Source of the DNA: Myxococcales bacterium
GTDB taxonomy: Bacteria; Myxococcota_A; UBA9160; UBA4427
Length of the DNA stretch: 40,232 nt
NCBI GenBank assembly: GCA_022563535.1
Contig: JADFNE010000039.1
Location: 1-40,232 of the forward strand
Direction: 5' to 3'
In this document: positions 37,294 through 39,099 of the stretch, in pieces
How the letters are laid out: each line of letters opens with the position of its first letter
Position numbering within the stretch: the stretch's first letter is position 1
The notes under the pieces: generated by a model
What the model was told of the DNA's origin: nothing
The model's database searches: none
What the model saw: the letters and a program-made list of their open reading frames with translations, nothing else
Translations under genes and position numbers: made by a program

Positions 37294-37660
37294 GGGGGCG
37301 ATCGGCTTCGACGGGTGGTCGAAGGTGAGCGCTGCGTGTCGACGTTGTACCACCGTCGTTAAAGAAGGTTCAAATGTTGGTAGCATTTTATCTGCCGACG
37401 ATAACTACGCTCTCGCTGCCTAGCAGAAACTAGGTTAGCGGGCTCTCGTCCGTGACGTCTCCTAGCGGGTCGCGAGAGTCATCAGGAGACTGGCTTCCGA
37501 GCGCTGCTAGACCGTATCCGGAAGCGAGACCCATGTGTAGCTAGGTTGCACTTGCTCCGTCTTTGCGGCCGGTGCAACCGAAACTAAGCAAAGACTACAC
37601 ACGTAGACGCGTTCTCTGGGCGCCATGCGGACGCGGGTTCGATTCCCGCCGCCTCCACCA
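37294..37660 (+). ncRNA. ssrA: Transfer-messenger RNA (tmRNA)
   Basis: The 367-base RNA begins GGGGGCG (37294-37300), which pairs with CGCCTCC before the terminal ACCA (37657-37660), making the 7-pair acceptor stem of the tRNA-like part. The T arm GGACGCGGGTTCGATTCCCGC is present in pieces at its 3' end. The short tag frame ends at TAG (37421-37423) and encodes ADDNYALAA, a proteobacterial type of degradation tag. tmRNA with SmpB rescues ribosomes stalled on broken mRNAs. Its last 38 bases and one base beyond recur at 38368-38406. Confidence 0.95.
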
Positions 37661-37661
37661 C
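37623..37661. repeat. 39-bp direct repeat, copy 1 (attL-like, ssrA 3' end)
   Basis: From CCATGCGG to CCACCAC, including the T arm and the CCA of tmRNA. Identical to 38368-38406 and in the same direction, with 706 bases between the copies. The flanking bases differ on both sides. The 3' end of ssrA is a known target of tyrosine-type integrases. Confidence 0.9.
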
Positions 37662-37682
37662 TTGAGTTTAGGATACAGATTT

Positions 37683-37883
37683 ATGGCCGATTCCAATCCA
37701 AAGAAGGACGTGTATTCGCGCCGAGTGGATCCGGTTGTCAAGGTGTTTCGCGCCGACGTCGACGTGAGTTTGTTGGAAAGAAATTTGCGACTCAGCGTCG
37801 AAGAGCGGTTTCTCCAACTGATGGAGCTTCAGCGCTTTGCCAACGAGTTGAGCGCCGCCGGACGTAAGGCAACACGCGGGTGA
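37683..37883 (+). CDS. Small protein paired with a nucleotidyltransferase, 66 aa
   Basis: A 66-residue protein with a helical C-terminal half: DVDVSLLERNLRLSVEERFL and LQLMELQRFANELSAAGR. Proteins with this L-x-x-N-L-x-L-x-x-E-E-R pattern are often encoded just upstream of AbiEii/MNT-type nucleotidyltransferases. The ATG lies 22 bases after the tmRNA CCA. Its stop overlaps the start of the next gene (GTGA), so the pair is coupled. An antitoxin or accessory role is inferred from this arrangement, not from any direct motif. Confidence 0.75.
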   Translation: MADSNPKKDVYSRRVDPVVKVFRADVDVSLLERNLRLSVEERFLQLMELQRFANELSAAGRKATRG

Positions 37884-38365
37884 TCGATTTCGCAGCGGTA
37901 CTTCGAGTGTTGTCTGAAGCCGGTGTGAAGTTCATCATCGTGGGCGGGGCCGCCGCCACCGCACACGGAGCTGCCCGACTCACCCAAGATCTCGATGTCG
38001 TCTATCGCCGCGATGCGGACAATCTGCGTCGCCTCGCACAAGCACTCCAACCCCAGGAGCCCTATCTCCGAGGTGTACAACCCGGGCTTCCCTTTGTTCT
38101 CGACGAAGAAACCCTGCGCACCGGTCTCAACTTCACGTTGGTTTCAAAGTTGGGTGACCTCGACTTACTCGGCGAGATTACCGGTGGTGGAGGCTTCGAC
38201 GACTTGCTCGAGCATTCAATCGAGATCGAGCTCTTTGGCACTCGTTGTCATTGTCTAGGTCTGAGGAAGTTGATCGAAGTCAAGCGTGCCGCCGGACGTC
38301 CGAAGGATCTCGAGGCATTGGCGGAGTTGGAAGAGCTGTTGAGCCGAGCGGCGGATTCGGAGTAA
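37880..38365 (+). CDS. MNT/AbiEii-type nucleotidyltransferase
   Basis: A 161-residue protein with a polymerase-beta-like nucleotidyltransferase core: IIVGGAAATAHGAARLTQDLDVVY, listed here in pieces as VGGAAATAHG (21-30) and RLTQDLDVVY (33-42). The Gly-Gly pair and Asp37/Asp39 are the expected nucleotide and metal residues. The C-terminal half is helical (LRKLIEVKRAAGRPKDLEAL). Related enzymes act as toxins that add nucleotides to tRNA ends, or as antitoxins that nucleotidylate a HEPN partner. GTG overlaps the stop of the 66-residue protein. The gene ends two bases before the second copy of the ssrA 3' repeat. Confidence 0.82.
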   Translation: MIDFAAVLRVLSEAGVKFIIVGGAAATAHGAARLTQDLDVVYRRDADNLRRLAQALQPQEPYLRGVQPGLPFVLDEETLRTGLNFTLVSKLGDLDLLGEITGGGGFDDLLEHSIEIELFGTRCHCLGLRKLIEVKRAAGRPKDLEALAELEELLSRAADSE

Positions 38366-38367
38366 GC

Positions 38368-38406
38368 CCATGCGGACGCGGGTTCGATTCCCGCCGCCTC
38401 CACCAC
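38368..38406. repeat. 39-bp direct repeat, copy 2 (attR-like)
   Basis: An orphan copy of the tmRNA T arm and CCA end with no 5' part, identical to 37623-37661. It begins two bases after the nucleotidyltransferase stop. It marks the far boundary of the islet, probably the original 3' end of ssrA before insertion. Confidence 0.9.
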
Positions 38407-38460
38407 GACATCATCACGTACCTATGGTTAAGAACCGGATTTAGGCCCTAGACTTGACCG

Positions 38461-38766
38461 GTCATCATGCACTCGGATCAAGGTTCGCAGTACGGCAGCG
38501 ATGACTGGATCCGCTTCTGTAAGGCACACAGGCTAGACCCCAGTATGAGCCGCCGAGGGAACTGTTGGGACAACGAGGTCGTTGAATCGTTCTTCAGCAG
38601 CTTGAAAAAAGAGAAGATCAGACGGCAGGTCTACCGAACGCGCGATCTCGCGAAGACAGATGTCTTCGAGTACATCGAAATGTTTTACAATCGTCCCCGA
38701 GGCCATAGCCATCTTGGCGGCGTCAGTCCCGAGGTGTTTGAAACCGCCTCAAACCGCGGCCTCTAA
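38461..38766 (+). pseudogene. IS3-family transposase remnant (C-terminal part of OrfB)
   Basis: About 100 residues of the DDE integrase core: MHSDQGSQY with the second Asp, then NCWDNEVVESFFSSLKKEKI with the catalytic Glu, then YIEMFYNRPRGHSHLGG. A TGA stands in frame at 38455, and OrfA, the first Asp region and the left end are absent. The frame is intact from 38467 to the stop at 38764-38766. It cannot encode a working transposase. It lies 55 bases beyond the attR-like repeat. Confidence 0.88.
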
Positions 38767-38820
38767 ATGTCCACTAGACTGGGGAAGTCCAGCCTTGGAC
38801 TTCCCCCAAAACAGTGGACA
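38461..38820 (+). mobile_element. IS3-family insertion sequence remnant
   Basis: The 3' third of an IS3-type element: the transposase fragment plus a palindrome at 38768-38820. The outer arms are TGTCCACT and AGTGGACA. The inner arms are GGGGAAGTCCA and TGGACTTCCCC around a 4-base loop. The right end is taken as 38820 because IS3 elements end in CA. No left end or target duplication was found. Confidence 0.65.
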
Positions 38821-39099
38821 CTTCGGAGGCTAGCATTGAGCCAGCCATAGGGTCCGCGCCTTGTGCGATAACATTGGAGATTCTTCCCCCCATCCGTTCC
38901 GCTGGTTTCCTCCGCGAACCCCTTCCTTTGCCTACGCCCCTCCCCTGGATCCCACCAGGCACCCCAATCGGTATAAAACCGGACTAGAGGCATAAAGAAG
39001 CGATGAACACGCCCGATGAGATAGGAGCAGAGAAGAACTGGAGTGGAAGCTGGAACCAGATCTATCTGGGGGCGAATTCGAGCGGGAGAGACTCAGCGG
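38821..39099. other. Region between the IS remnant and the membrane protein gene
   Basis: With the palindrome, about 330 bases after the transposase stop hold no supported gene. The part from 38880 to 38960 is C-rich on the plus strand. GGTATAAAACC at about 38970 is AT-rich and could be part of a promoter for the gene at 39100, but no -35 element is convincing. Confidence 0.35.

Follow-up and report, generated by a model that had tools for sequence, protein, structure and literature searches.

How did a gene pair that brings no integrase come to lie between two identical copies of the 3' end of ssrA, the tmRNA gene? The question is raised by an islet in a Myxococcales genome (G000), found in the window, that is, the whole stretch of 40,232 nucleotides analysed here, which constitutes the entire contig C39 of a 147-contig assembly. 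An earlier inspection of the letters alone, hereafter the sequence-only reading, had taken the islet to be either the remnant of a larger element or a tiny cassette mobilised in trans by a tyrosine integrase that recognises tmRNA ends. All of the data used here come from drafts or metagenome assemblies, in which repeat arrays assemble badly. The features of the locus are collected in Table 1.

Table 1. Features of the islet behind ssrA, with positions in the window.
Feature	Positions	Strand	Evidence
ssrA (tmRNA gene), intact 3' end	37294..37660	+	ARAGORN, tag ADDNYALAA*; RF00023, E 7.6e-66
First 39-bp direct repeat copy: functional ssrA 3' end plus one C	37623..37661	+	Repeat search, 100%
66-aa protein, putative MenA1-like antitoxin	37683..37883	+	ATG start; upstream partner of the nucleotidyltransferase, conserved in many phyla
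161-aa nucleotidyltransferase, MenT1-like putative toxin	37880..38365	+	GTG start; DUF2204, predicted fold, invariant residues
Second 39-bp direct repeat copy: displaced or duplicated ssrA tail	38368..38406	+	Repeat search and sequence

The repeat comprises the last 38 bases of ssrA followed by one C (CCATGCGGACGCGGGTTCGATTCCCGCCGCCTCCACCAC), and its two copies are 100% identical. They form the single 39-nt repeat family that the search returned at this locus, and the probability that a perfect repeat of this length arose by chance is negligible. The 706 bp between the copies are filled by two open reading frames that overlap by 4 bp, with the start codon of the 66-aa gene lying 22 bp past the first repeat and the second repeat beginning 2 bp beyond the stop codon of the 161-aa gene. 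The GC content of this interval is 56.5%, against 61% for the window. Neither frame encodes an integrase, and the 13 PF00589 matches in the genome are all located on contigs other than that of the window. Measured from repeat to repeat, the islet spans 745 bp and is the shortest of 26 tail-to-tail intervals identified in this genome and its relatives; the other 25 range from 782 bp, for the same pair in the relative G322, to about 10 kb. The sequence-only reading had described identical repeats made of the ssrA end and one further base, two coupled genes without an integrase, and a size below that of typical ssrA-borne islands, and the repeat search, the ARAGORN call of the tmRNA gene, the gene content and the interval lengths bear out this description. 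It had also proposed a search for orphan copies of the repeat; no further ssrA tail was found in the genome at up to three mismatches, nor was a second copy of the islet.

Several other signals at the locus deserve mention. The tRNA-Arg that ARAGORN places at 38312-38401 is spurious, an artefact built on the displaced tmRNA tail. A C-terminal fragment of an IS3 transposase occupies positions 38467-38766, 60 bp past the second repeat, and contigs C14, C2 and C92 of this genome also carry, at 91-85%, the sequence just behind it (38791-38855), which is probably an IS end. Minus-strand open reading frames that run over the tail (38248-38417 in the window, and at many tail loci) translate as MVEAAGIEP or RRRESNPRPHG, and are a likely source of spurious annotated proteins.

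The 161-aa protein exceeds the Pfam cut-off for DUF2204 nucleotidyltransferases. Its AlphaFold model, obtained with 25 homologues, has a pLDDT of 94, and the best PDB structure matches of the model are two MenT1 entries, 8rr5 and 8an4 (VIA Z of 14.2 and 13.8, respectively, over 137-143 residues). Foldseek pairs the model with MenT1 of Mycobacterium tuberculosis at an E-value of 1.1e-6, and MenT1 is also the top PDB sequence match of the protein, though a weak one, with an identity of about 25%. Residues T35, D37, D39, K135 and D143 are invariant in the 25 homologues. The catalytic residues T39, D41, K137 and D152 of MenT1, which were mutated in PMC11375011, have their equivalents in T35, D37, K135 and D143; the phmmer alignment sets T35 and D37 onto T39 and D41, and K135 and D143 were equated with K137 and D152 by motif inspection rather than by the alignment. 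MenT1 acts by modifying the acceptor ends of tRNA, and the 68-aa protein MenA1 blocks it (PMC10435456).

The 66-aa protein has no match in Pfam, NCBIfam or PADLOC. A partner of this kind is located upstream of the nucleotidyltransferase in most homologues. The size and the position of the protein fit a MenA1 role; a profile of 21 such partners retrieves no MenA1 chain. Where dN/dS could be computed (the window, G322 and the locus L091 described below), it amounts to about 0.1-0.26, synonymous sites being saturated or nearly so. Purifying selection acts on the two genes, neither of which is disrupted. The likeliest reading of these comparisons is that the two genes constitute a toxin-antitoxin pair of the MenAT1 type, with the nucleotidyltransferase as the putative toxin. 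The pair resembles MenAT1 of M. tuberculosis (Rv0078B-Rv0078A; PMC10435456, PMC11375011) in its small upstream protein, of 66 aa here and 68 aa there, and in the fold and the matching T, D, K and D residues of the nucleotidyltransferase; the differences are an identity of only about 25%, a small partner for which no match to MenA1 was detected, and a toxicity that is putative here. A scan for promoters of the sigma-70 type and for terminators, from ssrA to the pair and across the islet, returned no sigma-70-like promoter and no plus-strand terminator-like site. Because, in addition, only 22 bp separate ssrA from the pair, the two genes are probably expressed by read-through from ssrA.

The distribution of the pair is patchy. 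In a sample of the order that comprises 80 genomes, including G000, all of them apparently covered by the search, a close version (>60% identity) is present in one of the other 79, G322, which belongs to another family and in which the pair again lies between ssrA tails; the two proteins are 70% and 59% identical between G000 and G322. Acidobacteriota, Planctomycetota, Latescibacterota, Rokubacteria, SAR324 and other groups have homologues at 50-70% identity. The G322 pair comes after a tail core at position 2740 of contig C250. Directly behind the TAG of the pair stands TGCGGACGAGGGTTCG, and an insertion of about 60 bp separates this from CCGCCGCCTCCACCA. At L091, on a contig from a Bipolaricaulota bin, the sequence after the TAG is CGGACGCGGGTTCGATT; this tail is shortened to about 17-18 bp and does not lie beside the ssrA of that genome, which is found on another contig and reads CGGACGCGGGTTCGACTCC. 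The tail in the window is identical to the ssrA end at 39 of 39 positions, and that of G322 is decayed. Since the nucleotidyltransferases of the window, G322 and L091 form one clade (support 98/86, recovered in all 200 bootstrap trees), the tail was probably gained once by the pair. The L091 contig has a GC content of 65%, compared with 57-62% at other loci of its genome, and may be misbinned.

The claim that the islet is a discrete acquired unit stands, given its scarcity among the 79 other genomes and the ssrA loci of relatives without it. The search for empty ssrA sites, likewise proposed in the sequence-only reading, returned relatives that have ssrA loci without the islet, including G001, whose upstream genes match those of the window; none of the relatives fetched shares the downstream flank of the window, and for this reason a strict empty site at ssrA itself could not be shown. 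Two vehicles for the islet were considered and rejected: a phage, with no phage match and one remote viral contig at 21%, and a plasmid, with two weak matches only, at 33-35%.

The ssrA gene is a site of repeated integration in this order. The 25-base core of the tail occurs in 61 of the 80 genomes, a count in which some matches are tRNA-like, with one mismatch, or ssrA itself, and tails are arrayed in G322, G060, G328, G039 and others. The elements between tails measure 1.1-10 kb, most are devoid of an integrase, and their cargo, assigned by eye, includes genes for a cyclase-like regulator, a carboxylesterase, a gamma-glutamyltransferase, a dioxygenase and a peptidase. Directly oriented arm repeats (p<0.05) are clear at the two ends in G039, G253 and G344, and in G328 for a single interval; no attP-type arm repeats were detected in the islet (p 0.75) or in the G322 pair by this test, a weak one that gives a clear result in only 4 of the 26 intervals. 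Tyrosine integrases or their C-terminal pieces adjoin tails in G001, G019, G049, G032, G039, G034, G344, G056, G322 and G060, while PF00589 matches inside tail-bounded intervals are confined to G039 and a broken copy in G344. As PF00589 alone misses diverged integrases, that of G019 for example, a tblastn search was added alongside it. The tail core shared by the other elements is roughly 26 bp long, and the 39-bp repeat of the islet reaches further upstream.

No ssrA-tail integrase was found in the genome of the window. Its only related integrase (L014; G000:C5, 115826-117070) is located behind a tRNA-Leu and is 58% identical to the ssrA-adjacent integrase of G001, in the same subfamily. Distant nucleotidyltransferase genes lie beside ssrA tails at L118 (G003:C115), L184 (G060:C402) and L128 (G055:C72), and those of G003 and G060 are paired with a small helix-turn-helix-like partner; nucleotidyltransferase pairs thus recur at the hotspot. 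The loci L172, L173, L182, L183 and L184, in G322 and G060, are arrays of tail-bounded elements that have a common left arm, CCGGTTAGTTGATTGCGGGTGATCG, single cargo genes and no integrase.

Comparable arrangements have been described elsewhere. The ssrA islands of Dehalococcoides (PMC3146451) similarly show direct repeats of the ssrA 3' end and tandem islands downstream, and about half of them (15 of 31) have no integration module. They are, however, larger (about 12 kb, vcr type) and use serine recombinases, whereas the islet has two genes in 0.7 kb. The tDNA islands with tyrosine integrases in the Islander database (PMC4383910) are likewise delimited by an intact tDNA copy and a displaced 3' fragment, from which the islet differs in having neither an integrase nor recognisable attP arms.

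Long direct repeats also surround other members of the nucleotidyltransferase family. Flanking repeats at the module ends with an alignment score of at least 40 were found at 5 of 125 family loci, compared with 2 of 1369 geometry-matched controls drawn from the same loci (Fisher p 7e-5, or 6e-4 without the window). These figures derive from a search with tight limits and with mismatched-pair and same-locus controls, which superseded an initial one with loose limits. A perfect repeat of 82 bp covers the ends of the convergent genes plsC and fabH in G142, one of 21 bp lies at the end of maf in G114, and a Pedosphaera locus has 87 perfect bp within a repeat of 138 bp (127/138) at the 3' end of pnp; the repeat in G185 matches at 29 of 33 positions. 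The names of the repeat-bearing neighbour genes, with the exception of ssrA, were assigned by eye. The repeats, of 21, 39, 82 and 87-138 bp, are unrelated in sequence and, outside ssrA, are not tDNA. Like ssrA beside its 39-bp repeat, the genes next to these duplications remain intact. One tRNA gene was found beside the other family members, a tRNA-Arg immediately past the stop codon in L086, with no repeat on the opposite side.

At two of these loci, congeners have the locus uninterrupted. When the two flanks of G142 are joined, they align as a single block in G396, G320 and G397 (73-81% identity); the repeat is present once in two of the three, and a search for the nucleotidyltransferase gave no real match. 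The joined flanks of G114 also align as one piece, in the congener G399; this case rests on the flanks, since the 21-bp target is not recognisably conserved in G399.

The explanation that we favour, with a probability of roughly one half, is that a bare toxin-antitoxin unit arrived behind ssrA through insertion with long target duplication, in preference to mobilisation in trans by an ssrA integrase. The islet would then be a bare MenAT1-type operon whose putative toxin probably acts on tRNA 3' ends. Its insertion just behind ssrA would have duplicated the last 38-39 bp of the target, by which route ssrA would have stayed intact. Such a unit would bring no integrase, transposase or recognisable attP arms, and its ends would essentially be those of the operon. 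Either template switching or single-crossover integration of a circle bearing a copy of the target would give the duplication. Other family members appear to insert in the same manner at the 3' ends of protein genes, with repeats that differ in length and sequence. Once flanked by a copy of the highly conserved ssrA tail, the pair and its tail would have persisted as one clade, in two families of the order and on the Bipolaricaulota contig, perhaps re-entering ssrA through recombination at that tail. Against target duplication it must be said that the clearest examples outside ssrA involve members only 35-56% identical to that of the islet, and that a repeat is present at only 5 of 125 loci.

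The prior for a site-specific route is high, given that ssrA has proved to be a hotspot of tandem elements in the order. By this account the pair is an integrase-less ssrA element that enters, and may leave, by recombination between tails, catalysed in cis or in trans by the tyrosine integrase of another ssrA element at a site of tandem accretion. Tails in 61 of the 80 genomes, some of them arrayed, integrases or C-terminal pieces beside tails in ten genomes with most tail-bounded intervals lacking PF00589, and the 15 of 31 Dehalococcoides islands without an integration module (PMC3146451) all agree with it. The hotspot, together with the position of the G322 pair between tails inside a tail array, leaves this account a substantial share of the probability, as the leading alternative to target duplication. 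Yet neither the islet nor the G322 pair shows arm repeats in the weak arm test (clear in 4 of 26), the related integrase of the genome is at tRNA-Leu and none was found for the ssrA tail, and the shared tail starts right at the stop codon and covers 39 bp instead of the core of roughly 26 bp seen elsewhere. Moreover, the tail of about 17-18 bp at L091 lies away from the ssrA of its genome, and the family inserts at unrelated sequences, which are not tDNA, at other loci. The mobilisation in trans put forward in the sequence-only reading is therefore a credible second choice rather than our preferred one. A single old insertion behind ssrA in the ancestor of the order, inherited vertically and mostly lost, with the repeat of the window kept perfect by gene conversion with ssrA, appears improbable. 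It would account for a pair identity between G000 and G322 (70% and 59%) that, by eye, is not above that of SmpB, for synonymous sites near saturation, and for the tail-bounded elements on both sides of the G322 pair, as later accretion would give. Only 2 of the 80 genomes retain the pair, however, the tail is preserved at 39 of 39 positions in the window while that of G322 has decayed, and the clade takes in a contig binned in another phylum, though possibly as contamination. The evidence separates target duplication, the ssrA integrase and vertical descent incompletely. The least probable origin, and the other one suggested from the letters alone, is a larger ssrA island that lost its integrase and arms by deletion. 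In its favour, the IS3 fragment 60 bp past the second repeat is a sign of local rearrangement. Against it stand the two perfect repeats, the two intact, constrained genes, which leave free only 22 bp behind ssrA and 2 bp ahead of the second repeat, and the bare pair of G322, which likewise ends at a tmRNA tail; a deletion is unlikely to yield the same ends twice.

Insertion with long target duplication has been described for restriction-modification genes (Nobusato et al. 2000, as cited in PMC1643837 and PMC3031569), and the parts of this literature available to us tie it to such genes. As far as these sources describe them, those insertions resemble what we propose here in comprising a bare toxic unit, long repeats copied from the target and variable in length, relatives with an uninterrupted locus (here at two family loci other than ssrA), and no transposase or integrase inside. 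They differ in that the unit of the islet is a nucleotidyltransferase toxin-antitoxin pair and that one target is a tmRNA gene. A wider and more doubtful extension would make the pairs of the whole family minimal mobile units, able to cross phyla with no recombinase of their own and to insert at the 3' ends of genes while duplicating 20-140 bp of target. A single lineage would have captured the tmRNA tail, a near-universal sequence, as portable landing homology, and would thereby have become a cassette addressed to ssrA and served by the ssrA promoter.

The mechanism of insertion is open to testing, as the repeats at the loci of this family span 21 to 138 bp, two of the loci have uninterrupted congeners, and one lies behind the tmRNA gene. 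The islet also calls for caution, in that long direct repeats of a tDNA end do not by themselves prove integrase attachment sites. That relatives of the pair lie between unrelated long repeats at other gene ends suggests that it spreads bare, duplicating the site where it lands and bringing no integrase, and the family bears on how chromosomal toxin-antitoxin pairs move without transposases.
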